From the IMG/VR virus record IMGVR_UViG_3300032242_000785, positions 1-24,495 of that record: DNA of 24,495 bases; one strand, 5' to 3'. Position numbers and translations under genes: made by a program. The stretch is from a virus. The notes under the pieces were generated by a model. That model ran no database searches, was not told where the DNA came from, and worked only from the letters and a program-made list of their open reading frames with translations. This document shows, piece after piece, positions 28 to 18,553 of this stretch (positions are counted from its first letter, which is position 1; the number at the start of each line of letters is the position of its first letter).

Positions 28-2519
28 TATTTATGTCCGTAATTATTTGTTCCTGATTTTTCAACCGTCTTTCCTATTGCTGCTGAAACTTTATGTCCAT
101 CCAAATAAACACCAATTTTACCTGATTGCATATCTGCTCTCAATGCTTTTATTTCACCTATTAATTCATCCGTTTTATCTTGCTTAGCGCCTCCGCCACC
201 TTCACCAACTAATCCAATTTTATTTAATCCTGTTAATACAGGAAGTGCTAAAAGACCAGCAACTCCAACTGCTGCCAATGCACCTGCCAATACCATTAAA
301 GAACCTGCTAAACCAAGTATAGGACCAAATTCTATTTTTGATAATTGTGATACATTATCCACTATATTAGGTAATACACTACTAATTGCATTAAATCCGT
401 TTGCAGCTACTATTAAACCGGCACCCAATATCATCATAGCAGCTCCCATAGCTATAAGAGCCAACACACCTGCTCCAAATACAAGTGCACCAACACCTGT
501 CATCATAAGTGCACCTAATCCAAATATTGCTGCTGTAAATATTACTAATCCCGCTGCCGCTGCTAATACATTTTCCATTTTAACATTTGCTAATAAACTT
601 AATGCAAAAGCAAATGGTATTAATGCAGCTCCCAATATTGCAATTGCAATTGCACCTTGTATCATATCACCTTCTACTTTTGATAAAAGATATGCAATAC
701 CAACCAATCCCAACATACCAACCAAACCTTTACCAACATCTTCCCATTTTACAGTTGCAAATTCTTGAAATGCTTTTGCAGATACCCAAAGTGCTGCTGC
801 TAATATTAATATTGCAGCTGCTCCTTTTATTAAATCTTCTGATTTTATTTTTCCAAATTTATTTGCGTTATCAACTTGAGGTGCATTATCCGTTGGTTTT
901 GGTATCTCTGCCGTTCCTGGAGTTGCCATTTTTCTAGCACCCAATTTAGTAAATAATTTTGTTAATCCCGGAACCTCTAATCCCATTTTAGCAAGTGAAC
1001 CACCCATTTGTGCCAATCCTAAAACAAGACCTCCGGCCGTTTTTAACATACCACCCATACCAGTTGCTATACCGGTTACGGATTCTTTCATTCTATCAAA
1101 TGTACTTACTTGTAATGTACCATCTGAATTAAGTTTATCCGAATTTGCTGCCATTTTTTGAAACTCCTCAACCGATAAACCTAATAATTGTGCTGCTTTT
1201 CTCTTTTGGAAAATATCCATTTTATTGAAAGCATCTATACCACCTAATTGTTGTAATGTATCTTTAACTGCATCTCCAATCTGGCCATTATATGCTAAAC
1301 TTCTTGCATTGTTTAAATTAATATTTTTACCAAGCATTGCACCTAATTCCAATTCATCATTAATAGATGATTCAAAATCCAATAAATGGTCAGTAACTCT
1401 TGTTAAAGTATCCATATTAACGCCCAACTTACCCGCCGCTACTGCTGCTTCTGCTATATTTTTACCACCATTTTTTCCATATTCTGCAAATGCTTTTGTT
1501 GAATTTGCAACATCCTTCATAACTGCGGATGGTACTAAATGGTTTTGTTTTGCTAATTCTTTTGTACTTTCTGCTAAATTAGCTGCCATATCCGTTGAAC
1601 CATTGTTTAACCTTGCAAAACTTCCTAATGTTTTAGCTGCTTCATCACCAGTAATACCCATATTTAATGCCATCAAATTGGTATTAAATTGAGTACCCAT
1701 TGTAATATCTTTAAGTCCACCAAATTCAGAAGATAATGATTTTGCAGTTCCACTTGCATCTTTAAAAATCAAACCAAGACCCATTGCTGATGCCTGTGCA
1801 CCACCTATGTACCCACCCCAATCTCTCACATTTGCTCCTATATAATCTGCTGCTTTACCCGCACCCATTAAAGTAACTCCCAATGCACCTGCAGGTCCTG
1901 ATGTCAGAATTGAAAATGTACTTAAAATTCCACTAATAGTTTTTTTAACAGTATTAAGTGTATCTACTTGTGCTTGCAATTGTTCTTTAACTTCTTCCGA
2001 TAAACTAGCATATTTATTTGCTAATTTGTTTGATTCAGTTAAATATTTTACTTGAGTTTCATATCCTTTACCTCTTTTATCCAAAGATGCCAATTGCTTA
2101 TCAAATTCCATTTGCAAAGCCTGAGCTTGAATAACATCTTCTTTTGAAAGTTGTGCTAATTGAGCATTTATAGATGCCATTGATTCAAACGCTTGAATAT
2201 TGGCTTTATGTTGAGTACCACTATCTCTTAAAGCGGTTACTCTTTTCTTTTCATATTCTTGAATAGGAGCATATAAAGAACCTATTGACTTCATTCCTTT
2301 TTCTTGCTCACTAATAGAATCAATTATTATTTTTTGATTTTCTCTTTGAGCTTGATTTAATTTAAATAATTGATTTACTCTATCTTTTTCTAATCTTTTT
2401 AATCTTTCTAAATTATTTATTTCATCTTTAGTAATAGCAGCACCTTTAGCCTCCAATTCATTTAATTGTTGCTGTATATCTTTAATATCTGCCTTTAATT
2501 CTGCTTTACCCTTAGCCAT
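27..2519 (-). CDS. tape measure protein
   Basis: 830-aa protein that probably sets tail length and occupies the tail-tube lumen. Residues about 1-200 are polar, Glu/Lys/Gln-rich and coiled-coil-like. A Gly/Ala-rich middle follows, then from about residue 565 to 770 come several long hydrophobic Ala/Gly/Leu/Ile segments typical of tape measure proteins. The C-terminus has a short helix (DELIGEIKALRADM) and the motif VYLDGHKVSAAIG, a tail-end pattern I know from other phage tape measure proteins. It is longer than T4 gp29 (about 590 aa); at roughly 1.5 angstroms per residue the tail would be about 120 nm (inference). It starts 5 nt after the 71-aa gene without an obvious SD, so it is probably coupled to it. 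Position downstream of the tube and chaperone genes supports the call. Sequence conservation in this family is low, so the call rests on architecture and context. Confidence 0.88.
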   Translation of the reverse strand: MAKGKAELKADIKDIQQQLNELEAKGAAITKDEINNLERLKRLEKDRVNQLFKLNQAQRENQKIIIDSISEQEKGMKSIGSLYAPIQEYEKKRVTALRDSGTQHKANIQAFESMASINAQLAQLSKEDVIQAQALQMEFDKQLASLDKRGKGYETQVKYLTESNKLANKYASLSEEVKEQLQAQVDTLNTVKKTISGILSTFSILTSGPAGALGVTLMGAGKAADYIGANVRDWGGYIGGAQASAMGLGLIFKDASGTAKSLSSEFGGLKDITMGTQFNTNLMALNMGITGDEAAKTLGSFARLNNGSTDMAANLAESTKELAKQNHLVPSAVMKDVANSTKAFAEYGKNGGKNIAEAAVAAGKLGVNMDTLTRVTDHLLDFESSINDELELGAMLGKNINLNNARSLAYNGQIGDAVKDTLQQLGGIDAFNKMDIFQKRKAAQLLGLSVEEFQKMAANSDKLNSDGTLQVSTFDRMKESVTGIATGMGGMLKTAGGLVLGLAQMGGSLAKMGLEVPGLTKLFTKLGARKMATPGTAEIPKPTDNAPQVDNANKFGKIKSEDLIKGAAAILILAAALWVSAKAFQEFATVKWEDVGKGLVGMLGLVGIAYLLSKVEGDMIQGAIAIAILGAALIPFAFALSLLANVKMENVLAAAAGLVIFTAAIFGLGALMMTGVGALVFGAGVLALIAMGAAMMILGAGLIVAANGFNAISSVLPNIVDNVSQLSKIEFGPILGLAGSLMVLAGALAAVGVAGLLALPVLTGLNKIGLVGEGGGGAKQDKTDELIGEIKALRADMQSGKIGVYLDGHKVSAAIGKTVEKSGTNNYGHK

Positions 2520-2524
2520 TTATG

Positions 2525-2740
2525 TTATTTAGATAATTTTTTCAGCATTTGTTTTAATTCCTCTGCTTCTTTATTTAATTTTTTCATTTTAGCTATTACA
2601 GGTGCATCAACTTTTCTTTCTTCTGCTTTTGATAAAAATGAATTTATTGTATTATTTTTTAATCCATCAAAAAATGCATCACTAAATTGTTTTGCTGCTC
2701 CAAATAAACCTTCTTCAATTTGCTCTTTCTTATTTGACAT
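2525..2740 (-). CDS. small helical protein between tail chaperone and tape measure
   Basis: 71-aa, highly charged protein with no signal peptide or membrane segment. Residues about 1-30 contain an amphipathic stretch (EEGLFGAAKQFSDAFFDGL), and residues about 40-71 form a Lys/Glu heptad-like helix that could be a coiled coil. I do not recognise the family. It is the first gene after a terminator-like hairpin (2775-2805) and an ATATTTAT motif, and it ends 5 nt before the tape measure gene, so the two probably share a transcript. A role as a tape measure partner or tail-initiation factor is possible from position alone. The ATG at 2740 has no SD-like sequence. Confidence 0.75.
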   Translation of the reverse strand: MSNKKEQIEEGLFGAAKQFSDAFFDGLKNNTINSFLSKAEERKVDAPVIAKMKKLNKEAEELKQMLKKLSK

Positions 2741-2758
2741 AGTTAGTTAATTATAGTA

Positions 2759-2766
2759 ATAAATAT
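2759..2766 (-). promoter_or_regulatory. ATATTTAT motif upstream of the 71-aa gene
   Basis: The 8-mer ATATTTAT in coding orientation ends 18 nt before the ATG at 2740. It lies just downstream of the hairpin at 2775-2805, the arrangement expected if one transcription unit ends and another begins. It is one copy of a recurrent intergenic motif. Confidence 0.5.
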
Positions 2767-2774
2767 TCCATAAT

Positions 2775-2805
2775 AAAAAAGTGAGGATTAACGCATCCTC
2801 ACTTT
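2775..2805 (-). terminator. Rho-independent terminator after the tail chaperone frame
   Basis: In coding orientation AAAGTGAGGAT (2805-2795) pairs perfectly with ATCCTCACTTT (2788-2778) across a 6-nt loop, and the 3' arm runs into a T6 tract. The stem contains the last codons and the TAA stop of the 85-aa frame. It is the strongest terminator-like structure in the window. Confidence 0.8.
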
Positions 2806-3045
2806 CGGTGTTTTATTTTGTTTTTGAGCTTTTTTCATCTCTTCAGCTTCTTGCTTTTTAAATTCTAATAATTTATTAAAATAGAATTTTCTTAAATAGG
2901 TTGGCATGTGATAAACATCTGCCCAAGTAAATCCATTACCAAATTGAAGCATTTCCCAAATTTGGTTATGAAGTTGAGTCCTATAATCAGTTGGAAGGGT
3001 AAAAAAAGTTAATACCAAATGGTATATCAAGTGCCTCCGTATCAC
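2788..3045 (-). CDS. tail assembly chaperone downstream frame (T-like part)
   Basis: 85-codon open frame overlapping the 3' end of the 271-aa gene by 59 nt in the +1 frame. It has no ATG. The frame opens after a TAA at 3051-3049, and its only early start candidates are GTG at 3045 and TTGs at 3030 and 3018, none with well-spaced SD. The content looks like the C-terminal part of frameshifted tail chaperones: a pattern around FTWADVYHMPTYLRKFYFNKL followed by a Lys/Glu-rich tail (KKQEAEEMKKAQKQ). The position between tube and tape measure fits. I infer that it is reached by ribosomal frameshifting on the T7 run (3007-3001), giving a fusion of about 337 aa. Alternatives are independent initiation (a gp51-like protein) or a sequencing error in the homopolymer. 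Confidence 0.7.
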   Translation of the reverse strand: MIRRHLIYHLVLTFFTLPTDYRTQLHNQIWEMLQFGNGFTWADVYHMPTYLRKFYFNKLLEFKKQEAEEMKKAQKQNKTPKVRMR

Positions 3046-3802
3046 CTGTTATATCTGATGTAAATTCAAATTTCAAATCCAAATCAGGTGAAATTTCTTT
3101 TACATAGTTTCTAAATGCTTTTGTATCTTTTGCTAAGAATGAATTTTGTACCCATCTATTAACAAATCCTCTATCAGAATTTCCATCAACTGAAATAACC
3201 ATATATCTTAAACGAGTTGTTACATCAAATGCTGTTCCACTGTTTTTGTTATATTTTTCTAATGCTTGAATTTCTTTATTTATTTCCACTTCATCAAAAT
3301 GAGTCAATAATCTAAATTCAATTTCTTTTCCGTTTGAAGGTAATACAAATTTGTAAACATTTTTTGAATTTAAAACAGAAGTATCAACATCTTTTGTTTG
3401 TACTTTAGATAAATCAATTACTACATCTTGCTTTTCCAATGTAAAAGGGTCACTTATTTCAACTCTATAATCAGCACCATATCCTAAAATACGAGTTGCT
3501 AAAAGAATAGCATTTTTATCACCAATGTAAATATCATTTGTATTTACACCAGGTTCTACAACAACTGATTCAAATAATTTGTCTAACACTATACCTTTTT
3601 TAATAAGGTTTTGTGATGCAAGGATATCTTCCTCTTTTGCTGTCATATATTTGATTTCACAAGTTCCTTTTCTTAATGGATGACCTTCAGGATAAACTAA
3701 ACCTTGAGAAGGTAATTCAATGATTTCAGTTGGGAAATCAAATTTTGGTTGTTGCGGTGCACTTTGTTGAGGTGCTTGGTTAATTTGTACCATATCTGCC
3801 AT
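2987..3802 (-). CDS. T4 gp26-like baseplate/tail assembly chaperone protein
   Basis: 271-aa cytosolic protein with a low-complexity Gln/Pro N-terminus (residues 1-20). A conserved block follows around ELPSQGLVYPEGHPLRKG and IKYMTAKEEDIL, then QNLIKKGIVLDKL. I associate this pattern with the T4-like base-plate family (Pfam T4_baseplate, gp26-like) found in T4-type and marine phages. Known family members act in baseplate-hub assembly; exact biochemistry is unclear. Placement directly between tube and tape measure, with an overlapping downstream frame, is also the classic position of a lambda G-like tail assembly chaperone. The protein ends in FFYPSN, four codons after a TTT TTT T run where frameshifting may occur. 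The start at 3802 lacks an SD but has an ATATTTAT motif 22 nt upstream. Confidence 0.8.
   Translation of the reverse strand: MADMVQINQAPQQSAPQQPKFDFPTEIIELPSQGLVYPEGHPLRKGTCEIKYMTAKEEDILASQNLIKKGIVLDKLFESVVVEPGVNTNDIYIGDKNAILLATRILGYGADYRVEISDPFTLEKQDVVIDLSKVQTKDVDTSVLNSKNVYKFVLPSNGKEIEFRLLTHFDEVEINKEIQALEKYNKNSGTAFDVTTRLRYMVISVDGNSDRGFVNRWVQNSFLAKDTKAFRNYVKEISPDLDLKFEFTSDITGDTEALDIPFGINFFYPSN
3001..3007 (-). other. candidate programmed frameshift site (T7 run)
   Basis: Coding orientation reads AAC TTT TTT TAC CCT TCC AAC TGA in the 271-aa frame. Skipping one base after TTT TTT (+1), or slipping back two, moves ribosomes into the 85-aa frame (ACC CTT CCA ACT GAT). The zero-frame stop comes four codons after the run. 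A GGAGG at 3038-3034 lies 26 nt upstream, probably too far to act as a classical stimulator. Confidence 0.5.
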
Positions 3803-3824
3803 AACTATAATTGTTTTTGTATAT

Positions 3825-3832
3825 ATAAATAT
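3825..3832 (-). promoter_or_regulatory. ATATTTAT motif upstream of the gp26-like gene
   Basis: ATATTTAT in coding orientation ends 22 nt before the ATG at 3802, within the 52-nt gap after the HNH gene. It would allow the chaperone gene to be transcribed independently of the inserted endonuclease. Confidence 0.5.
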
Positions 3833-3854
3833 ATCTTTTTTAAAAAATTAAAAA

Positions 3855-4646
3855 CTATATGTTGTAGGATGGGTGTAATTCACAATGACATGATTTGCAT
3901 AAAGTTTTACCGCTTATATCATTACTGATGTGGTAATCTATTACTTTATTCATTATTTCTCTCTTTTCATCAAATGTGTAATCTTTGGTTTTATCTACAT
4001 ATTTTAGTATAATTTTCGACATTGCTTCTTCGTTATGATGTACCTCCAGCTCTTTAGTAGAACCACATTTAGTACATTTAAACTCATCTTTTTTTAGTAT
4101 AGGGTATATCCATTCAGTATATAATCTTTTATTTGCTCTTACTAAATTATTTATTGAAGATGTACCACCTTTCCAATTAGCAGAATTAATACCCCATTTA
4201 GTAGGAACAATACCATCTAATCTATTTTTTCTCATTTGATTAGAATATTGTAGTTTCCTATCTAATGTAAACGATTTACTTACGTTTTTTCCATAATTAG
4301 CTATTCTAATATCAGTATCTTTTGTCAATCCATCATTCCACACAGTTCGTTCACCATTATTAAATTGCTCCCTACGAGTTTTAGATGAATTATTAATTGC
4401 TTTTTCATTATGTCCCCAATTGTTTTTTACTCTAGATATATGACCTCGTATCCATTCTTTATATCCTTTCTGTAAAGTAGTGAATGGTGTATCTTCGCCG
4501 CAACCACATTTACACTTTGGTCTTTCTCCATTTAGTAAATATTGATTATATACTTCTTGCGATGTTATTTTGTGAATTTTAGAACTATGTATTCTAAGTG
4601 AATCCAATGAATTTAACTCTTTTTGACAATGCTTACATATATACAT
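3855..4646 (-). CDS. HNH homing endonuclease (free-standing)
   Basis: 263-aa site-specific DNA endonuclease, probably a selfish element inserted between the tube and chaperone genes. It has an N-terminal C2H2-type zinc finger (C4, C7, H20, H25), a second Cys cluster (CKCGCG, residues 45-50), a NUMOD-like DNA-binding block (VWNDGLTKDTDIR, residues 102-114), an NWKGG motif (157-161) often seen before HNH domains, and a C-terminal HNH nuclease. The nuclease has zinc ligands C191, C194, C250 and C253, HH at 203-204 and H258. All parts look intact, so it is probably functional. It ends in TAG. An AAAGGG SD sits 7 nt before the ATG but is buried in the 3' arm of a perfect hairpin (4650-4681), so expression is probably restricted. 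The cleavage site cannot be predicted from this sequence; the tube/chaperone junction of a phage lacking the insert is the obvious candidate. Confidence 0.9.
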   Translation of the reverse strand: MYICKHCQKELNSLDSLRIHSSKIHKITSQEVYNQYLLNGERPKCKCGCGEDTPFTTLQKGYKEWIRGHISRVKNNWGHNEKAINNSSKTRREQFNNGERTVWNDGLTKDTDIRIANYGKNVSKSFTLDRKLQYSNQMRKNRLDGIVPTKWGINSANWKGGTSSINNLVRANKRLYTEWIYPILKKDEFKCTKCGSTKELEVHHNEEAMSKIILKYVDKTKDYTFDEKREIMNKVIDYHISNDISGKTLCKSCHCELHPSYNI

Positions 4647-4681
4647 AAAAAATCCCTTTACATATAAATATAAAGGGATTT
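4647..4681 (-). terminator. hairpin ending the tube transcript and masking the HNH ribosome binding site
   Basis: In coding orientation AAATCCCTTTA (4681-4671) pairs perfectly over 11 bp with TAAAGGGATTT (4660-4650), with a 10-nt loop. TTT and then the HNH start codon follow directly. It can act as a terminator for the tube gene about 60 nt upstream. The 3' arm carries the only SD-like sequence for the HNH gene. An ATATTTAT motif begins at the base that ends the 5' arm and fills most of the loop. Confidence 0.75.
4664..4671 (-). promoter_or_regulatory. ATATTTAT motif inside the HNH hairpin
   Basis: The motif ends 17 nt before the HNH ATG. If it is a promoter element with a start site 6-10 nt downstream, the resulting mRNA would lack the 5' arm of the hairpin and expose the SD. 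Confidence 0.5.
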
Positions 4682-4738
4682 ATAAAAACGTTTATTTTTG
4701 ATTAAGAAATATTAAAAATTCATAATCATATGTTAATG

Positions 4739-5227
4739 TTAAAATTCAAGCACCGCGTAATCGTAAGCCAAAGTAAGAGTGATTTCTGCTGGGTCATTAG
4801 AACTAAAATCTAAATCACCAAAATTAGCTTGAATGATGAATGCACCTTTCAATTTCCATTGTTCTATTTTATCGCCAACTGGTCCTAACATATAGATATC
4901 AATATCCTTTTTGTAGAAATCAGCGTATCCATCTCTACCAGTAATTGATTCATGAGATAAACGAACCCACTCCATTACCGCTTGAGCGCCAGATGGAACG
5001 ATTGGGTCATACATAGTAATCTCCAAATCTTGCCATTCACCTTTACCTTTTAATTGTCTTTTAACGTTGATATGGTCTAAAGTTACTTTTTCAAAGTTGA
5101 TTTGAGGTCTGTTTGCTGCCTTAATCATATAAGATTGGATACCATCAATTTCCATAATGTATCTATTCTTCATCTTTGGTTCAAAGTTCGTATAGAACAT
5201 TTTATCAAACTCTAATATTTCTGCCAT
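4739..5227 (-). CDS. tail tube protein (T4 gp19-like)
   Basis: 162-aa protein expected to form hexameric rings stacked into the inner tube of the contractile tail. Its size matches T4 gp19 (about 163 aa). Recognisable features include the start FDKMFYTNFEPKMKNRYIMEIDG, an NxxRP-type turn (AANRPQINFEKV), LEITMYDPI, and the closing beta strands PAEITLTLAYDYAVLEF, all typical of the gp19 family. It lies directly after the sheath gene, as usual. An AAGGA SD sits 7 nt upstream of the ATG, and an ATATTTAT motif sits 24 nt upstream, suggesting strong independent expression of an abundant structural protein. A hairpin (4647-4681) ends the unit. Confidence 0.95.
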   Translation of the reverse strand: MAEILEFDKMFYTNFEPKMKNRYIMEIDGIQSYMIKAANRPQINFEKVTLDHINVKRQLKGKGEWQDLEITMYDPIVPSGAQAVMEWVRLSHESITGRDGYADFYKKDIDIYMLGPVGDKIEQWKLKGAFIIQANFGDLDFSSNDPAEITLTLAYDYAVLEF

Positions 5228-8721: not shown

Positions 8722-8729
8722 TTAAATAT
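8722..8729 (-). promoter_or_regulatory. ATATTTAA, one-mismatch copy of the recurrent motif
   Basis: It lies 23 nt before the ATG at 8698, at the same spacing as exact copies elsewhere. It overlaps the last base of the large fibre's TAA stop. Confidence 0.35.
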
Positions 8730-11700
8730 TATGTTTTTAATAATAATTTTATGTCATCTATTTGAGATTGTAAATCATTAATTTTAATTTGTTGTTTTAC
8801 ATTTTGAGCTGCCAAATCTTTTACAGCTTCAATTAATACTGCTGATATATTACCATATGCTACAGAATATGTATCACCTTCCGCATCGTACTTAACAACT
8901 TCAGGTAATACGGCTTCCATTTCTTGCGCTATTACCCCAACTTGCTTATCAGTATCAACATGCAATGAGTTTTCTTTGAAATTAAAGTAAACCCCTCTCA
9001 TTTGCATTACTTTATCTAATGCATTATCAATTGTTACAATATTTTCTTTAGCCCTAATATCAGAATAGTTGTTCCAGGTACCAGATGCCCAACCATATCC
9101 TTGAATAGTAATTTTATAACCACCACCTAAAGTATATGAAGTACCAACTCCCATACATTGATTACCTCTACTCCAATACATTATCCAACCACTATAATTT
9201 TCATTATACCAACCACCATTTCCATCATTCCACATATCAGTTGTATAATATCCATTATTATCATATGTAGTAATACCAGCCCAACCATTTTTATATCCAT
9301 ATGTCATCCAATGCCCATATGTAGTACTGTAGTTAATTCTAAAATCACCTACAAATGGAAATGCGCCAACTGCCCCATCAGCTTGTAATCTACCATATTG
9401 ACCCCATAATCTATAATAATCATCAGTTGTAACCCAACTTCTAAATCTAGCAGGATAGTAAACACCCAATCCACCATCAGCAGTACCACCCAACTTAAGG
9501 TCACATCTATAACCAGGCCAAGGGTCTACCACATATCCATTAAAACCCGCTTGAGCTTCCCCACTCCAATACACCGGCCCACCAGCTCTAATAGTTCCAT
9601 TTGCCTGTAAGTTTCCAGCATGCCAAGCATCTCCATTACCCATACCAAATAAGTGGGCGTTATTATTTGTACCATTTTCAACAATACCAATAGTATGGTC
9701 ATTTCTAACGTTCCAAGCACTACCATACCAATATGTTAAACCATAGTAGTTACCACCAGCCCAGCTATCACCAATTGTCCAAATTGATTTTGTTGAAGTA
9801 CCTGCTTGGTCGTAGTTACCAACTATATTTCTATCACTATATGTTTTATAGTATGTATCCGTTAAGAATCTATTTGATGCGTAAACATATGTATCAGAAT
9901 AATAACCAGCTCCACCATAGTTTCTAACCCAACTACCATCAGTCATTCTAATACCAATACCATATGTGTTGTTATAGAAACCAGTTGCACCTTGTGCTCT
10001 AAACCAGTCATTAGCCATTACATATGCTAATTGTGATTGAGAGTTAGGGTCAATATAGTATCCACCATTATTGTAATCATACATAATTGGTGCATAGAAG
10101 TTAGTCAAAGACCTGTTGTTTCTATCACCCACACCTACTTGGAATATATCACCACCATGATACGGGTCATTATCAAAAAATCTAGTTCCACCATATCCAT
10201 AATATCCACCAATTTCAACTCCAGTATGCCATCCTAATACCATACGAGTATGTGTTGAGTAACCATTTGAATATGGTCCTCTTACCCATAACATATAGTA
10301 AGGTTGGTTATCACCTCTTGCTCCAGAAGATATACCAGTTTGAGAACCTACTGCAGATGGGTCACCACCACTATTACCTAAATCAATATGTCTAGTATTA
10401 CCAGCACCACTACCAACTCTGAATACAAATGCTCCATCTTGGCCCATATGATAATCAGACCAAATTTGTGGTCCTCTCATTGTGCTGTTAAACCAAACAG
10501 TTGAACCATTATCCCAACGTAAGTTCCAACCAACCATTGCTCCAGTTGGACCACCATATCCCAATCTCCAGTCATTTGCACTAACATTACCCATTAAACC
10601 CCAATAAGTAGATGGGTTATTCATTGCAAAGTGTCCAGTATTATTGGCCGCATCCAATCTAAATGTACTTTGTGCAATCACATAGTTCATATTAGTTGTA
10701 CCACTAGGGTCTACATAATATCCACTATTATCCCAATCGTACCAAATATTAAAGTAAGCACTTGCTCCTCTGATTGTATTATAAGGTCCAATCCATAATT
10801 GAACATCACCAGCCCCAGCAAATCCTTGAGGTGAACCAACACCACCAGCCTGGTCAAATCTCCAACCATGCGTAGAGTATGTACCAATACCACCATACCC
10901 AGCTCCATTCCAGTTTTGAAGGAATACCGCTTGGTTATAATATGAAGTGTTTACACCATATGATATAGCTATTTGATATACAGAGTTTGAAGTACCATTA
11001 GGATTATTATAGTATCCAGTATCATCTAAATCATAGAATATAGGTGCTCTTGATGAACCTGGTACATAGTTATTACCACTCATATCCAACTGCCATCTAT
11101 TAGCTGGTGCACTCCATCCACCAATTCTTAATACGTTATCGGAATCAAGACCCATATTTACGGCGTAGTAACCTCCCTTATGGAATGCCATAATAGCACC
11201 ATTATTACCAGTAGAATACACATATAAACCTACACCAGCAGAACCATTCACCGAACCATTACCCAAAACACTAACACCTTGGTTATTATCCCAATACCAT
11301 GTACCATGTACATTCGCAGCGTTTAAATTAGAAGTAGAAGCAGGGTCTAAATAGTATCCAGCGTTATCTACATCTAAAAATTGAGTACCATATACCTGTC
11401 CAGTTGATTTTAATGTACCCTCAACTCTCATAGATGCTTCATACACAATATTGTATCCAGCTCTATCAGAAATTGTAGTTGTTGGATTTGCTGTGTAGAA
11501 TACCGTACCACCAGAAGAATCTGTATAAGATGTGCCCGATGGATTACCAAATGCCAAAGATGTACCTCCAATAATATTATATAAATAATAAATTGTTGCA
11601 CCTCTTAACCAAACAATTAAGTGAGAAGATTGAGATACTTGAGTCCAATCAGCCATTGCGTTGAACGTTCTATAATATCCCTCTAAGTTTTCATAAGTTG

Positions 11701-14700
11701 CACCAAATCCCCAACCACTTGCTTTAATACTAAATCTAATGTTACAAGTTGAAAATCCAATACCACTATAACCAGGGTCATCATATCCACCCCTTTCAAT
11801 CATAAACTCACCATATTGTTGTACAGTTGCTCCTGCTCCAATATTAAAAACAACAGGATAGAAAGTTCCACTACTACCACCCACAACAAATGAAGTTCTT
11901 TGTGCACTATCGATTCTAGTAGCATATCCAGTAATACCAGGTGAAGTAATTGTACCAGCAGTTATTAATTGATTTAAGTTAGTTGTACCATTTGTATTAA
12001 GATAGTATGTACTATCATTATTCATATACAAATTACCATTACTTAAATTTTTTCTTAAATCCCAAGATGCCCAGTTACCATTTAAAAATCCGTAGTTACT
12101 ACTGTTATCTGCATATAATTGAAATTTAAAAGAACCTCCAGAGTTTTGTAATAAAATACCAGCATCACTGTTAGCTGCTGTTCTAATTAATATATTATTA
12201 GAGTTATATGAATAGTGATAATGCCCACCTATATAAGCTGCTACTATATTTGAAGTACCATTAGCATCTATATAATATCCAGTATTATCGTAATCATAAA
12301 ATATAGGAGAACGAGTACTACCATATATTTCCGTATATCCATTATAGAATTTTGCTTGAGAACTACCACCAAATCTAATTTCAAAATATGAAGAATATCC
12401 TAATATAGATGTAGTTGGTGTACCAGATGTACCACTTGCTCCAAATGCAATTACAGATACTCCGTTTGGTGCGTTAAATAGTCTTATGTTTTCATTATAA
12501 GAGTTGTATTGAGTACCATTATTTATCCATACTGAACCATTTTGGAAATAGTTAACATTGGATGTACCATTAGGGTCTACATAATAAGCAGTATTATCAT
12601 AATCATAAAATATAGTTGCTCTAAATTGATTTGATATTGATGTTGCAAATGTTGAATAATACCAACCAGAACCACCATAGTTAGGAGATTCTAATTCAAT
12701 AAATCCGTTAGCACTTTTTAATCTAACACCATAATATCCACCAATTTGTGTTTGGGTGCCACCAAATGGTCCACCAACATTATTATATCCAAGCCCATAC
12801 CAAGGAGAACCATTTATGGTATCACTATTACTACTATTAACACGGAAATGAACTCCCTTAACAGTATTTAAATTTGAATCACTATTAGGGTCTAAAAGAT
12901 AAGAATTATCATTTCTATCAATAAATCTATTAGCATAAAAATCACCTAATGCCTCAGAACCTGCTGCAATAGTAGTATTTAATTCCTCTAATCTAAATCC
13001 AGTTATTTCAGCAACTCCAGTATATCCACCATAAGGATATGAACTTAACCATCCTAATTGAACATATTTGGTATAAGAGTTCCAAGTATATCCAGTACCA
13101 GCTCCAGAAGGTCCAATTGTCATTGTATATTCTGTCCAAGCTCCAGAAGGTACTCCAGCAAAGAAATATGGTTGTCCCCATCCACCATTATCAGGTTGAG
13201 ATAAATCATAACCCGCTTGGTCAAATGAAAGATAGTTATAAGGGTTACCCGATACAGTTCTAATCCATACCGAAACTTTATAAGATTTTGTTCTATCAAT
13301 CGGCACCCAATGAGATTGTCTAATGGCTTGATATCCAACAGCTCCTCTCATTGATAAACTACCTAATTGAGAATCTGATAAGCCGGATTGGTAGCTTGAA
13401 CCAGGCCAGTTTCCAGAACCATTTGCACCATGCCAGTTATTTGTTAAAAATCTACCATTTGGAACTTGTGTAAAGTTTATATTTGCACCATATCCAGTAT
13501 TTAGTGTAGTTCCCCCAATAACTAAATTATTTAAATATGAAGTACCACTTGCTTTTACATAATATGAAGTATTAGCGTTATCATACATTGTACCACCAAT
13601 ATAAGAACTACCACCAAGAGTTAAGTTATTACTAATTAAAGACATATAAGTAGTACCACCACCACTACTACTATTTGCACCAGCATTCCAATACCAAGTT
13701 GCACTGGCACCAGTTCCAGCTGATTCAAAGTTTGTTTGGTCATCGGTGAATATATGTAAATTTCCATTATCGTAAATATGTGAAACGCCTGTTCCATATG
13801 TAGAGCCACCCCAACCTATACCAGTACCATTATTTATAAATTGTAATTGACCAGCAACATTTATATTACCACCATTACCACCTAATGTAAATGATAATGC
13901 AGAACCAGCTCCATAATCATATGCATCTAATTTTATAGTACTACCATCATTATAGAAATAAATTAATTTATTACCACCAAATGCTCCAACTTGATTTGTA
14001 CCAAATACTCCATTATATCCAGTAGATGTCATAGTACCACCAACATAAAGTTTAGTAGTAATATATCCTGCTCCAGTTACACCCAATGGATATCCCATAT
14101 TAGATGTTGAGTTAATGGTTATATTACCACCATTTGGATTTAATAATATATTATAGTTATTATTTAAACCACTCCTATCAGTAGCCTGAATCCAAGTATT
14201 TACTGAGTTTAATCCAAAATCTAATACAGCGTTATCACCGCCTCTCAATCTTAATGCAGTTGCGTTTTGAGTTGCTCCAGATGTTGCAGGCAATGCGTTT
14301 GTTCCTGCCGATGAATATAATCTTACATTTGTATAAGCGTTATTATCACCAATATAAACATTTGAGCTATTAAAATATGCATTAGCATTTGCGGTTAATA
14401 ATCCAGTTACTGTTAGAGTACCTCTACTAATAGTTGTATTACCACCTGCATCAATAAATACAGCTACCTTTGAACCAGCTGCATATGAATCGGTTGTTGC
14501 TAAAGCCATTGTAGTACCAAATCCACCACCACTTCTTACATATATACCAGCATTAGCTGCAGTTGATGGGTTACTATCTCTTGCTCCAAACGTAATTGCT
14601 GAACCATAGTTTGCTGTATTTGATGAATATAAATGTAATGCATCTAATCCTAATCCAATAGTACCCGATGTTGCCCAATCGGCCCCAGTTGTTAATATAG

Positions 14701-17700
14701 TTACTCTACCAGATGTATTTAATGTACTTGCTAATGTTAATGCATTTAAATTAGAAGTACCATTATTAATATAATATGTTGTACCACTACCCACATATAT
14801 TGTTGTACCAGTAATTGTACCATTTGCTACAAAGTTAGTATCAGCTATCCAATATTGTGAACTTTCATTCCATAAAAATTGTCTTGTTGTTTGAGAACCT
14901 CTTGATACTTCAATACCAGCATTTAATGATGGTGTTGATGAACCCGTTACATTTGCATTTAATGTTATAACATTATCACCAACATATAAGTTAGTTGCGT
15001 TAAGATATTCAGTTGTTCCTAATACTTGTAAGTTACCAGTAATTACCGCTGCTCCAGCAACAGTCAATGTAGTACCATCAAATGTTAAGTTAGAGTTTAC
15101 TTTAGCGTTTGGAGCAGTACCATTCAAAGTAATTACACCATTATTAGTTGTACCAGTTAATGCCAAAACTCCAGATGAACCAGCCGTACCGGATGAACCT
15201 GATGTACCGCTTGTGCCAGAAGTTCCTGATGAGCCGCTTGTTCCAGACGTACCTCCACTACCAGCAGTTCCTGTTGAGCCACTTGTTCCAGATGAGCCGG
15301 ATGTACCGCTTGTTCCAGAAGAACCGGATGTGCCTGCTGAACCAGTTGAACCTGTTGTACCTGAAGAGCCGGATGTACCGCTTGTGCCAGAAGAACCACT
15401 ACTTCCTGATGTACCACCACTACCTGCCGTTGCTGATGAACCACTACTTCCGCTTGTGCCAGAAGAACCACTACTTCCTGATGTACCAGCTGACCCCGTT
15501 GAACCTGTTGTACCACTACTACCGCTTGTTCCAGAAGAACCCGATGTACCAGCTGAGCCGCTTGAACCCTGTGCTCCAGATGAACCAGAAGAACCCGATG
15601 TTCCACTTGAGCCACTACTTCCCGATGAACCACTACTTCCACTTGTGCCAGAAGAACCTGATGTACCGGCAGAACCTGATGAACCTTGTACTCCAGAACT
15701 TCCCGAAGAACCGCTCGTACCAGATGTGCCACTACTTCCTGATGTTCCGGATGAACCTGCTGTTCCACTAACACCTCTTACACCTGTAATAGATATTGTC
15801 CAAGATGATGCAGTTGTTGTTCCTATATTATAATCTGCAGCAATTGCAAATGTAGTACCACCTGTAATAGTTACAATTCCTTCAAAATAGTTTGAAACAG
15901 TATTTACTGCTCTTACTCTATCTCCAGTTATAAATGCACCTTGCTGATTTGTTGTTAAAGTTATTGTTCCAGTTGATGCCGGTGTTGCTGATGTAGCTGA
16001 TGTTACATTACCATATCCTGCTCCAGCCGTACCACTTGTTCCCGATGAACCGCTTGTGCCAGAAGAACCCGATGTACCACCAGTACCAGCAGTTGCTGAT
16101 GTTCCGGATGAACCTGATGTACCCGCTGAGCCACCAGTACCAGCCGTACCGGATGAACCTGATGTACCTGCTGAGCCACCAGTACCAGCAGTTCCACTAC
16201 TTCCGCTTGTGCCAGAAGAACCCGATGTACCACTACTACCATTTGTACCACTTACACCAGAACTTCCTGATGAACCAGATGAACCTGATGAACCCGATGA
16301 GCCCCCAGCTCCCGTTATACCTGATGAGCCCGAAGACCCAGATGAACCACTTGTTGCTGAAGTTCCACTTGTACCTGCTGTTGCATTTGTACCACTACTT
16401 CCCGATGAACCACTACTTCCACTTGTGCCAGAAGTACCACCCGTTCCCGTTGAACCATTTGAACCCGATGTACCACTACTTCCACTACTACCCGATGAAC
16501 CCGATGAGCCGCTTGTACCAGAAGTTCCTTGAGAGCCGGTTGTACCAGAAGAGCCAGTTGTTCCACTACTACCGGATGAGCCGGCTGTACCTGTTGAGCC
16601 ATGAGAACCAGTAGTTCCCGATGTACCAGAAGTTCCTGAAGAGCCGCTTGTTCCGCCACTACCCGATGTACCATACGAACCACCTGCTCCAGTTATACCA
16701 CTACTTCCGCTTGTTCCACCACTGCCACTACTTCCGCTTGAACCCGATGTACCTCCACTACCAGCAGTTGCTGATGAACCAGAAGAACCTGATGTTCCAC
16801 TTCCAGATGTACCGGAAGAACCCGATGTACCACCTGTACCTGTTGAACCATTTGTACCGCTTGAGCCCGATGTACCTCCACTACCTGCGGTTGCTGATGA
16901 ACCAGAAGAACCACTTGTTCCCGATGTGCCTTGTGAACCGGTTGTACCAGCTGAGCCAGTTGTTCCTGATGAACCAGTTGTACCAGATGAGCCTCCACTA
17001 CCTGCCGTTCCCGTGCTTCCACTACTTCCGCTTGTTCCACTTGTGCCACTACTACCGCTTGTGCCAGAAGTTCCTGATGTTCCTCCACTTCCTGATGTAC
17101 CACTACTACCTGATGTAGCTGATGTTCCAGATGAGCCGCTTGTTCCAGCCGAGCCAGTTGAACCCGATGTACCAGCTGAACCAGTTGTACCACTACTTCC
17201 ACTACTTCCGCTTGAGCCACTACTTCCAGAAGTACCCGATGTACCACCACTACCACTACTTCCGCTTGTGCCAGAAGAGCCTGCGGTTCCTGATGAACCA
17301 GTTGTACCTGATGTTCCCGATGTACCAGAAGTTGCTGCTGCAAATTTACTACCTATAATACCCGTTGTTGGGTCTATTACTAATACCGTATTTGAATTTG
17401 AGGGGGCTACACTACCAGTATAAATTGCTATACTACCACTTACACTTAAACTACCACTAATAGAAACACTACCAGTAAATTGTTGTGTTGTGGTTACTGA
17501 ATTACCAAATCTATTTGAACCAGAAGAATATTCTACTGATGATGAAATAATATTTGTAATTATTTGATTAGCTTGTATTGTACCACCAACCGTTAAATTT
17601 TGTGTTATTATTTGAGAACCAGTTACACTTAAGTTACCATTAATTCCCTCTGCACCATTTACAGTCAATAACCCAGTTATTGTTTTATTACCAACAATAG

Positions 17701-18553
17701 TTTGATTTCCTAATTGATTAAATGAACCTGTTAAATTTTCATTTCCTAAAATATTTAATGAACCAGTTAAATTTTCACTACCAGTTACATTTAAACTTCC
17801 ACTTATCGTATCAATCCCAACGATAGTTTCATTACCTAAAATGTTTACACTACCAGTTAATATTTCATTTCCTAAAATACTCAATGAACCAGTAATTTGT
17901 TCACTACCAGTAATATTTAATGAGCCTGTAATTTGTTGACTACCACTTACAAATAAACTACCACTAATAGTTTCTATTCCATAAACATTTAATCCACCAC
18001 TTACATATTGACTACCACTTAAAATTAAATTACCTACAATTGTTTCAGAGCCTGTTAAATATAAATTACCACTAATATTTGTATTTATATTTATACTCAA
18101 TCCAATATTTGGTGAAATTTGTGCAATAGCAGAACCGGATTTAATTCTATTAATATCACCAATACTACTTGCATTTATATTTGTAATTTGAGAACCATCT
18201 CCTATAAAATAAGATGCTGATATAGACCCACTAACATTTACAGACCCAGATAGTTGAGTACTACCACTAATAAAAATCCCAGCTTGATTTACTTTTACAT
18301 ATGTTGAACCACTTGCTAATTGAGTTATATTTGTCAATCCACTACCATCTCCAATATGAGAACCACTAAAAGAACCAGTGATTTGAGAACCACTAATAAT
18401 AGAAGCTGTTATTGATTGTGATACATATAGTGATGTATTAAAAGAAATTGATGATGTTGATATTGTTGCTTGGTCAACACCATTTACCGTTACTGCTAAT
18501 ACACTTTGACTTATCTGATTTAACCCGTTAGGATTTTTGCCTAAAACATTCAT
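8729..18553 (-). CDS. giant modular tail fibre with collagen-like tracts and S74 chaperone domain
   Basis: 3274-aa fibre, probably a trimeric host-recognition appendage. Approximate order: N-terminal anchor with GDGSGLTNI/GDGSQITNI turns (1-150); 12-residue beta repeats of the type GSLNILGNENLT (200-310); collagen-like tract 1 (406-841); beta domain (842-927); collagen-like tract 2 (928-1126); a cap module shared with the upstream fibre (from 1128); a long stalk with ten D-x-D-N-x-G-Y-Y-x-D-P-type repeats; and a jelly-roll-like domain (1691-1856). The C-terminal S74 intramolecular chaperone begins at the SDIRAKEN motif (S3164). In endosialidase-type fibres this domain drives trimer folding and then cuts itself off before that serine, which here would release about 111 aa. 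The C-terminus is coiled-coil-like. The gene starts 14 nt after the 110-aa gene without an SD, so it probably depends on the promoter at 19276. It is unusually long for a fibre in one open frame. Confidence 0.95.
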   Translation of the reverse strand: MNVLGKNPNGLNQISQSVLAVTVNGVDQATISTSSISFNTSLYVSQSITASIISGSQITGSFSGSHIGDGSGLTNITQLASGSTYVKVNQAGIFISGSTQLSGSVNVSGSISASYFIGDGSQITNINASSIGDINRIKSGSAIAQISPNIGLSININTNISGNLYLTGSETIVGNLILSGSQYVSGGLNVYGIETISGSLFVSGSQQITGSLNITGSEQITGSLSILGNEILTGSVNILGNETIVGIDTISGSLNVTGSENLTGSLNILGNENLTGSFNQLGNQTIVGNKTITGLLTVNGAEGINGNLSVTGSQIITQNLTVGGTIQANQIITNIISSSVEYSSGSNRFGNSVTTTQQFTGSVSISGSLSVSGSIAIYTGSVAPSNSNTVLVIDPTTGIIGSKFAAATSGTSGTSGTTGSSGTAGSSGTSGSSGSGGTSGTSGSSGSSGSSGSSGTTGSAGTSGSTGSAGTSGSSGTSATSGSSGTSGSGGTSGTSGTSGSSGTSGTSGSSGSTGTAGSGGSSGTTGSSGTTGSAGTTGSQGTSGTSGSSGSSATAGSGGTSGSSGTNGSTGTGGTSGSSGTSGSGTSGSSGSSATAGSGGTSGSSGSSGSGGTSGSSGITGAGGSYGTSGSGGTSGSSGTSGTSGTTGSHGSTGTAGSSGSSGTTGSSGTTGSQGTSGTSGSSGSSGSSGSSGTSGSNGSTGTGGTSGTSGSSGSSGSSGTNATAGTSGTSATSGSSGSSGSSGITGAGGSSGSSGSSGSSGSSGVSGTNGSSGTSGSSGTSGSSGTAGTGGSAGTSGSSGTAGTGGSAGTSGSSGTSATAGTGGTSGSSGTSGSSGTSGTAGAGYGNVTSATSATPASTGTITLTTNQQGAFITGDRVRAVNTVSNYFEGIVTITGGTTFAIAADYNIGTTTASSWTISITGVRGVSGTAGSSGTSGSSGTSGTSGSSGSSGVQGSSGSAGTSGSSGTSGSSGSSGSSGSSGTSGSSGSSGAQGSSGSAGTSGSSGTSGSSGTTGSTGSAGTSGSSGSSGTSGSSGSSATAGSGGTSGSSGSSGTSGTSGSSGTTGSTGSAGTSGSSGTSGTSGSSGTSGSTGTAGSGGTSGTSGSSGTSGTSGTSGSSGTAGSSGVLALTGTTNNGVITLNGTAPNAKVNSNLTFDGTTLTVAGAAVITGNLQVLGTTEYLNATNLYVGDNVITLNANVTGSSTPSLNAGIEVSRGSQTTRQFLWNESSQYWIADTNFVANGTITGTTIYVGSGTTYYINNGTSNLNALTLASTLNTSGRVTILTTGADWATSGTIGLGLDALHLYSSNTANYGSAITFGARDSNPSTAANAGIYVRSGGGFGTTMALATTDSYAAGSKVAVFIDAGGNTTISRGTLTVTGLLTANANAYFNSSNVYIGDNNAYTNVRLYSSAGTNALPATSGATQNATALRLRGGDNAVLDFGLNSVNTWIQATDRSGLNNNYNILLNPNGGNITINSTSNMGYPLGVTGAGYITTKLYVGGTMTSTGYNGVFGTNQVGAFGGNKLIYFYNDGSTIKLDAYDYGAGSALSFTLGGNGGNINVAGQLQFINNGTGIGWGGSTYGTGVSHIYDNGNLHIFTDDQTNFESAGTGASATWYWNAGANSSSGGGTTYMSLISNNLTLGGSSYIGGTMYDNANTSYYVKASGTSYLNNLVIGGTTLNTGYGANINFTQVPNGRFLTNNWHGANGSGNWPGSSYQSGLSDSQLGSLSMRGAVGYQAIRQSHWVPIDRTKSYKVSVWIRTVSGNPYNYLSFDQAGYDLSQPDNGGWGQPYFFAGVPSGAWTEYTMTIGPSGAGTGYTWNSYTKYVQLGWLSSYPYGGYTGVAEITGFRLEELNTTIAAGSEALGDFYANRFIDRNDNSYLLDPNSDSNLNTVKGVHFRVNSSNSDTINGSPWYGLGYNNVGGPFGGTQTQIGGYYGVRLKSANGFIELESPNYGGSGWYYSTFATSISNQFRATIFYDYDNTAYYVDPNGTSNVNYFQNGSVWINNGTQYNSYNENIRLFNAPNGVSVIAFGASGTSGTPTTSILGYSSYFEIRFGGSSQAKFYNGYTEIYGSTRSPIFYDYDNTGYYIDANGTSNIVAAYIGGHYHYSYNSNNILIRTAANSDAGILLQNSGGSFKFQLYADNSSNYGFLNGNWASWDLRKNLSNGNLYMNNDSTYYLNTNGTTNLNQLITAGTITSPGITGYATRIDSAQRTSFVVGGSSGTFYPVVFNIGAGATVQQYGEFMIERGGYDDPGYSGIGFSTCNIRFSIKASGWGFGATYENLEGYYRTFNAMADWTQVSQSSHLIVWLRGATIYYLYNIIGGTSLAFGNPSGTSYTDSSGGTVFYTANPTTTISDRAGYNIVYEASMRVEGTLKSTGQVYGTQFLDVDNAGYYLDPASTSNLNAANVHGTWYWDNNQGVSVLGNGSVNGSAGVGLYVYSTGNNGAIMAFHKGGYYAVNMGLDSDNVLRIGGWSAPANRWQLDMSGNNYVPGSSRAPIFYDLDDTGYYNNPNGTSNSVYQIAISYGVNTSYYNQAVFLQNWNGAGYGGIGTYSTHGWRFDQAGGVGSPQGFAGAGDVQLWIGPYNTIRGASAYFNIWYDWDNSGYYVDPSGTTNMNYVIAQSTFRLDAANNTGHFAMNNPSTYWGLMGNVSANDWRLGYGGPTGAMVGWNLRWDNGSTVWFNSTMRGPQIWSDYHMGQDGAFVFRVGSGAGNTRHIDLGNSGGDPSAVGSQTGISSGARGDNQPYYMLWVRGPYSNGYSTHTRMVLGWHTGVEIGGYYGYGGTRFFDNDPYHGGDIFQVGVGDRNNRSLTNFYAPIMYDYNNGGYYIDPNSQSQLAYVMANDWFRAQGATGFYNNTYGIGIRMTDGSWVRNYGGAGYYSDTYVYASNRFLTDTYYKTYSDRNIVGNYDQAGTSTKSIWTIGDSWAGGNYYGLTYWYGSAWNVRNDHTIGIVENGTNNNAHLFGMGNGDAWHAGNLQANGTIRAGGPVYWSGEAQAGFNGYVVDPWPGYRCDLKLGGTADGGLGVYYPARFRSWVTTDDYYRLWGQYGRLQADGAVGAFPFVGDFRINYSTTYGHWMTYGYKNGWAGITTYDNNGYYTTDMWNDGNGGWYNENYSGWIMYWSRGNQCMGVGTSYTLGGGYKITIQGYGWASGTWNNYSDIRAKENIVTIDNALDKVMQMRGVYFNFKENSLHVDTDKQVGVIAQEMEAVLPEVVKYDAEGDTYSVAYGNISAVLIEAVKDLAAQNVKQQIKINDLQSQIDDIKLLLKT
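8732..9064 (-). other. S74 intramolecular chaperone/autocleavage domain
   Basis: Residues 3164-3274 of the fibre. It opens with SDIRAKENI, then NALDKVMQMRGVYFNFKE, QVGVIAQEMEAVLPEVV, and a final helix with heptad character. The conserved S-D-x-R-x-K opening includes the serine next to the self-cleavage point in this family; Ser and Lys are both present, so autocleavage is likely intact. Confidence 0.9.
10027..14785 (-). repeat. ten dispersed D-x-D-N-x-G-Y-Y-x-D-P-N-G-T-S-N-L-N repeats
   Basis: Imperfect protein repeats in the fibre stalk, at about 14744-14785 (partial), 13526-13587, 12861-12925, 12552-12613, 12244-12303, 11968-12018 (partial), 11321-11382, 10983-11040, 10684-10745 and 10027-10085. 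Each is roughly 17-21 residues, typically written FYDYDNTGYYIDANGTSN. Spacing is irregular (about 290-1,220 nt), with different beta-rich sequence between copies, which indicates a module boundary rather than a simple tandem array. Confidence 0.85.
12985..13480 (-). other. carbohydrate-binding-like jelly-roll domain in the fibre
   Basis: Fibre residues about 1691-1856. The pattern is that of galactose-binding/CBM-type beta sandwiches: MRGAVGYQAIRQSHWVPID, then SYKVSVWIRTVSG, W-T-E-Y-T-M-T-IGP, YVQLGWLSSYP, and a terminal EITGFRLEEL strand. It is rich in exposed aromatics (Trp/Tyr), as expected for glycan binding. Confidence 0.6.
15172..15768 (-). repeat. collagen-like Gly-X-Y tract 2 of the large fibre
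   Basis: About 66 Gly-X-Y triplets, almost all GTS, GSS, GTT, GST or GSA, with no proline seen. Fibre residues about 928-1126. It ends at the cap module beginning LALTGTTNNG. The reverse strand carries misleading Pro/Val/Glu-rich open frames here. Confidence 0.9.
16028..17335 (-). repeat. collagen-like Gly-X-Y tract 1 of the large fibre
   Basis: About 145 near-continuous Gly-X-Y triplets (fibre residues about 406-841), dominated by GTS and GSS, with occasional GTN, GST, GAG and GIT units. The Gly period is kept while codons vary. Confidence 0.9.
17620..17960 (-). repeat. 12-residue beta repeats in the fibre N-terminus
   Basis: Roughly nine to ten units following G-S-L-N-I-x-G-x-E-x-L-T, for example GSLNITGSEQIT, GSLSILGNEILT and GSVNILGNETIV. 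The 36-nt units also recur at DNA level as near-copies such as TTTCCTAAAATATTTAATGA on the plus strand. The period suggests a beta-solenoid or triple-stranded beta shaft. Confidence 0.75.

Follow-up and report, generated by a model that had tools for sequence, protein, structure and literature searches.

A hairpin that pairs the start region and holds a promoter-like word in its loop recurs before predicted homing endonuclease genes located behind phage tail-tube genes

Hairpins that hide a ribosome-binding site (RBS) and contain an inner late promoter have been described for I-TevI, I-TevII, I-TevIII, segB, mobE and the T4 genes e, soc and 49 (PMC2988022, PMC3014915). In the leaders of the T4 I-TevI, I-TevII and I-TevIII genes a stable hairpin is reported to sequester the Shine-Dalgarno sequence (SD) of a homing endonuclease when transcription comes from promoters further upstream, and the inner promoter is placed such that its own RNA lacks the 5' arm; these genes are intron-encoded and use the T4 late promoter word TATAAATA, and the available text describes no link to a replaced terminator (PMC2988022). 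The mobE gene of Aeromonas phage Aeh1 is reported as a free-standing, intergenic HNH gene combining an RBS-hiding hairpin with a late promoter, and reduced translation initiation was shown for it experimentally (Gibb and Edgell 2007, 2009, cited in PMC2988022, PMC3014915). The segB, e, soc and 49 genes share the logic of a mask with an inner promoter, and are a GIY-YIG endonuclease gene or ordinary phage genes. This logic is already known, even for a free-standing HNH gene; the locus reported here is not the first such case, as T4 segB and Aeh1 mobE precede it (PMC2988022, PMC3014915).

The present locus lies in a 24,495-nucleotide stretch of viral DNA (hereafter the window; positions 1 to 24,495 of IMG/VR record IMGVR_UViG_3300032242_000785) from a T4-like phage, whose minus strand encodes, in this order, a sheath protein (7601-5280), a tail-tube protein, an endonuclease (HE) and a baseplate hub protein. 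The tail region additionally contains a minus-strand open reading frame of 3274 aa (8729-18553). The features of the segment from tube to baseplate gene are:

4739..5227, minus strand: tail tube gene (gp19-like; PF06841 1.5e-10, phrog_4542 5e-32)
4755..4765, minus strand: TACGATTACGC, conserved tube 3'-end codons (YDYA) seen in the sequence; candidate endonuclease target
4721..4730, minus strand: TATGATTATG, the tube 3' end repeated directly in degenerate form, 8 nt past the tube stop
4699..4706, minus strand: CTTAATCA, partial inverted copy of the tube 3'-end motif, seen in the sequence, with weaker statistics
4671..4681, minus strand: hairpin 5' arm AAATCCCTTTA (folding and compensatory changes)
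4664..4671, minus strand: promoter-like word ATATTTAT in the loop; the word recurs upstream of genes in HE-less relatives
4657..4660, minus strand: predicted transcription start region, placed by -10 geometry alone
4650..4660, minus strand: hairpin 3' arm TAAAGGGATTT (folding and compensatory changes)
4654..4659, minus strand: Shine-Dalgarno AAAGGG, predicted to be paired in the long RNA
4647..4652, minus strand: TTTTTT, a T run following the G-C portion of the stem and being both terminator U tract and SD-ATG spacer
3855..4646, minus strand: endonuclease gene, 263 aa, with N-terminal C2H2 finger, middle helical region and C-terminal HNH-like domain
3825..3832, minus strand: promoter word belonging to the baseplate hub gene that follows, outside any strong hairpin
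2987..3802, minus strand: baseplate hub-like gene

Sampling of viral contigs recovered 12 near relatives of HE, and an alignment of ten members then gave 80 loci. Two of the 83 distinct contigs end before the flank; in the other 81 HE lies at the 3' end of the tail-tube gene, co-directional with it in 79 cases and convergent in two. The tubes are often 37-50%, and as low as 37%, identical to that of the window, and HE therefore occupies one conserved site in very different phages. The residues C191, C194, H203, H204, C250, C253, H254 and H258 are invariant and fit an N-terminal C2H2 finger and a second cysteine cluster, with an HNH-like C-terminus. In the structure model of HE (mean pLDDT 89.9) the N-terminus matches zinc fingers and the C-terminal part weakly matches the nicking endonuclease SciA of phage T5 (PDB 9qgx, 9qgv), a small protein without the zinc-finger part, whose sequence match to the C-terminal HNH region is likewise weak and under usual significance (E 0.06). 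The C-terminal part also resembles YomD-type HNH proteins of SPbeta phages over at most about 110 residues (35-45% identity), and these show no match to the N-terminal targeting part. Mob proteins are reported to join an HNH domain to a distinct C-terminal region and to reside at nrd genes, whereas HE has its HNH-like part at the C-terminus and a zinc finger at the N-terminus, and is located at the tail tube. The window HE alone gave no confident match to Pfam or PHROGs; the Pfam HNH model is marginally under its cut-off in L086, and a phrog HNH profile reaches 1e-6 in L085. Annotated phages yielded no full-length HE homolog, so no cultured test phage was found, and no T4 record occurred among the phage matches of the family. 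A genome-collection scan with the HE alignment returned 25 pattern matches, none of them a relative. HE is a nuclease reading frame at an intergenic site and is missing from close relatives (77 HE-less relatives in our set), as is characteristic of free-standing homing endonucleases, and we take it to be a site-specific one inserted behind the tail-tube gene.

In L090 and L091 the N-terminal targeting region and the tube site are retained and the nuclease end is DUF559/MTES_1575-like, which is apparently a domain swap in a site-specific endonuclease; L091 keeps the hairpin, and L172, which is nearest to L091, may share its DUF559-like end. The tube gene of L129 has in-frame TGA codons at positions where tryptophan is expected and its endonuclease frame is also interrupted by stops, which suggests that this phage reads TGA as tryptophan; L130, L131 and L133 are near-copies of L129 and probably share the in-frame TGA.

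On the minus strand the tube-HE junction of the window consists of AAATCCCTTTA (4681-4671), TATTTATATG (4670-4661), TAAAGGGATTT (4660-4650), TTT and the ATG of HE (4646-4644). The preliminary description had reported an 11-bp perfect stem ahead of this ATG, an SD within its 3' arm 7 nt from the start codon, and a candidate promoter 8-mer in the loop, and all three were recovered: the perfect stem spans 4681-4650 and extends to 14 pairs, one of them G-U; AAAGGG (4659-4654) is paired, with 7 nt between its end and the ATG; and ATATTTAT occupies 4671-4664. This hairpin is not a product of chance. The plus-strand fold of 4620-4720 has a minimum free energy of -15.2 kcal/mol (z -3.3) that was equalled by none of 200 dinucleotide shuffles; in the leader comparison described below the minus-strand hairpin scores -16.0. 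The stem runs into six T and scores as an intrinsic terminator too, a configuration (a G+C-containing stem directly before a U run) that is present in the window and is not general across the family. Without the 5' arm the start region in the window is predicted to be more open (0.60 rather than 0.17), and across leaders the median openness goes from 0.22 to 0.45, with an increase in 40 of 43 and with part of the gain arising from the definition of the short RNA. The other strong hairpin of the window (2778-2805) is an ordinary terminator with its promoter word outside, in contrast to the HE leader.

For each leader we recorded the best simple hairpin with its 3' end from 13 nt before to 14 nt after the start. 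Strong hairpins, reaching -12 kcal/mol, were found in 43 of 59 non-redundant HE leaders (73%; median -16.1 kcal/mol), whereas among 251 control starts from the same loci, taken from tube, sheath, baseplate and other genes, 4% had one (median -1.1; Mann-Whitney p 2e-27), the start codons being predicted ones and the leaders being related by descent; L090, L114 and L144, whose start codons are uncertain, were omitted from some tests. The window, L082, L083 and L084 share a common 13-pair stem in which all cells are paired and three pairs have changed on both sides. A different, AUG-masking form occurs in 11 leaders, where the ATG lies within the 3' arm (AAAGGTCTGTGGTA-loop-TACCATGGACCTTT), with five compensatory pairs and a covariation score reached by none of 500 shuffles; in these leaders 6-7 nt separate the end of the -10 from the ATG, so the message would be leaderless. 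When 16 diverse leaders were aligned with MAFFT the two arms came out misaligned, and that alignment was excluded from the pair counts. The SD is fully paired in 21 of 23 cases and the AUG is paired in 21; at least one of the two is buried in 36 of the 43 strong hairpins. Prediction and comparison agree in placing the SD or start codon within a stable hairpin in RNA initiated upstream. Within the family the leader appears to have been inherited and kept by selection; the preliminary description had left open whether the restraint was convergent or inherited, and the likeness to T4 is best seen as convergence because protein architecture, site and promoter word differ.

The word ATATTTAT is present in nine copies in the window, seven of which are on the coding strand, and all seven lie in the gap immediately upstream of genes. 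In HE-less relatives the same word precedes the tube (27/27) and g7749 (21/22), and TATTTATA precedes the baseplate gene (18/19). The ATATTTAT/TATTTAT word is directional and occurs upstream of late genes in 72 of 99 upstream regions; in the close HE-less relatives it stands in the sense orientation, mostly 25-35 nt before the ATGs of the tube, g7749 and baseplate genes. The T4 late promoter TATAAATA in sense orientation was found in 0 of 99 upstream regions. In more distant leaders the 5' arm separates the two elements of sigma70-like pairs and the loop holds the -10; examples are TTTACA-17-TATACT in L086, TTTACA-17-TATATT in L120, TTGACT-16-TATAGT in L123 and TTTACA-16-TACAAT in L125; in L170-L172 TTGACT is paired with TATATTTG or TATACTTG, elements which we take to resemble the Bacteroidetes-type consensus. 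With an E. coli matrix, which can only stand proxy for the actual hosts, the best sigma70-like -10 is no more than 7 nt away from the centre of the loop in 25 of 43 strong hairpins (12.4 expected) and promoter scores attain p<=0.05 in 18 of 43, AT-rich loops being prone to match TATA-like words. Among the strong hairpins, the loops of L142, L154, L160 and L162 lack a clear promoter word, and no -35 was found in the window leader. A sigma70 scan of the whole window gave the same number of promoters as shuffles, and single promoter matches were therefore kept out of the evidence. By their geometry, the word and the -10-like positions fit a predicted start whose RNA lacks the 5' arm.

The hairpin, the buried SD, the position of the word, the compensatory evolution, the association with HE and the exclusion of terminators (see below) are evident from the sequence. 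We consider it probable that this hairpin masks the start of HE and carries a promoter within it, blocking expression when RNA reads through from the tube and allowing it when RNA begins in the loop. Read-through RNA from the tube would hold both arms and fold; it would probably be partly terminated at the U run, and molecules passing the U run could not load ribosomes, as their SD would be paired. RNA from the loop-word promoter would start in or just before the 3' arm, without the 5' arm, and would leave the SD exposed. HE would then be independent of tube transcription, its own promoter being its sole source. The activity of that promoter, the position of the start site, termination, repression of translation and late timing are predictions from the sequence. 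The RBS mask with loop promoter proposed in the preliminary description thus gains good comparative support from the family hairpins, the compensatory changes, the loop word and the lack of such a hairpin in HE-less relatives, but its choice between termination and a translation block is not an either/or: where a U run is present, as in the window, both are likely.

It is unlikely, in our estimate, that the hairpin is merely the intrinsic terminator of the tail-tube gene, with SD and promoter word incidental, although the window hairpin with its U6 run scores as one and stands in place of the ordinary tube terminator, and although HE-less relatives have a terminator at the same place in 73 of 77 cases. 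The loops of these ordinary terminators are 3-6 nt long and hold no promoter word, and the ATG of the following gene, which has a separate promoter word, is far away; the masking hairpin is absent from these relatives, whereas the preliminary description had noted that its conservation there would reduce it to a tube terminator. Strong hairpin and separate terminator also exclude each other, as a terminator role would have it: 43 HE+ loci have only the strong hairpin, 10 only a separate tube terminator, two neither and none both (43:0 vs 2:10, Fisher p 2e-9), a result that is partly inherited, with two firm and six weak independent contrasts on the tree, and L138 (strong hairpin) possibly having a tube terminator missed by the scan. 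On the tree the trait shows about six changes, at least two of them firmly supported, and hairpin loss accompanies terminator presence. However, in L086, L087, L091, L125 and the AUG-masking group the hairpin persists with no U run directly after it, so termination by itself does not account for all members, nor would it call for an SD or AUG buried in most strong hairpins. In the two convergent loci (HE at the tube 3' end in L164, 2938-3858, and L167, 2231-3166) there is no sense tube read-through and no strong start hairpin, and together with the mutual exclusion this fits a guard against tube read-through.

The tube 3' end recurs as a direct copy, always at one offset (at least 8/12 matching), in 34% of HE+ loci, in none of the 77 HE-less ones and in 0.8% of shuffles, and an inverted copy (at least 9/12) in 15% of HE+ loci as against 3.4% of shuffles. 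The direct-copy loci are the window (4765-4699), L082, L083, L086-L089, L099, L123, L125, L137, L139, L144, L145, L149, L153, L158 and L162; the copy corresponds to the codons YDYA/FDN, lies 8 nt after the tube stop, is at times followed by the inverted copy, and was seen in HE+ loci only. Such copies, and the autorepression of I-TevI from an operator resembling its homing site, reported in PMC2988022, speak for a leader that is mainly a DNA operator or target, with HE binding the copies and/or the palindrome and repressing its own promoter; yet we regard this as very unlikely, since it leaves the compensatory changes in the stem and the SD or AUG in the 3' arm unexplained and the copies were not found in many HE+ loci, and such binding could add to the hairpin instead of replacing it. 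A hairpin between two genes could also be a stabiliser of tube or endonuclease mRNA or an RNase processing site, but a buried SD or AUG is not expected of these, and neither the word in the loop nor the association with HE would be explained; we regard this too as very unlikely.

The tube 3'-end copy may be an operator, a target remnant or an insertion scar. Its match to the own tube exceeds that to a swapped one modestly (6.1 vs 5.4 of 12), and co-variation of repeat and tube is therefore not claimed. The window and the HE-less L043 are 99.05% identical over 1435-3854, up to the base adjoining the HE stop, and 76% identical past the tube stop; on the tube side the window is matched by L081, whose HE is nearly identical. 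A breakpoint at the HE end is suggestive of what homing co-conversion could leave, and other recombination could produce it as well. In L063 a different, apparently coding insert of about 770 nt (3827-4602) lies between an ordinary tube terminator and the baseplate genes, and the tube 3' site may accept cargo besides HE.

Returning to the start-masking hairpin with its embedded promoter, the family-wide conservation, the AUG-masking form, the trade-off with the terminator and the nearby tube 3'-end repeat are new here; in the open-access literature we found no paper on the HE family or on a promoter-hairpin trading off with a structural-gene terminator. We tentatively offer a wider proposal, which is possible but which we do not hold to be the likelier case: a tail-tube-targeting family might carry a portable three-in-one leader (a promoter with its -10 in the loop and the 5' arm as spacer, a translational lock, and a replacement tube terminator), remade with varying promoter dialects and also as a leaderless AUG-locked form, with a target-site copy beside it as operator.

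Restraint of endonucleases by a masked start was described before for a handful of T4-group genes, and here it is kept, with compensatory change, across one endonuclease family in very different uncultivated phages. This suggests that selfish genes are selected to remain independent of strongly expressed structural neighbours. Loci that have kept a tube terminator lack the hairpin, a natural experiment which makes read-through testable as the cause, and the leader would serve as a compact promoter-plus-lock part.
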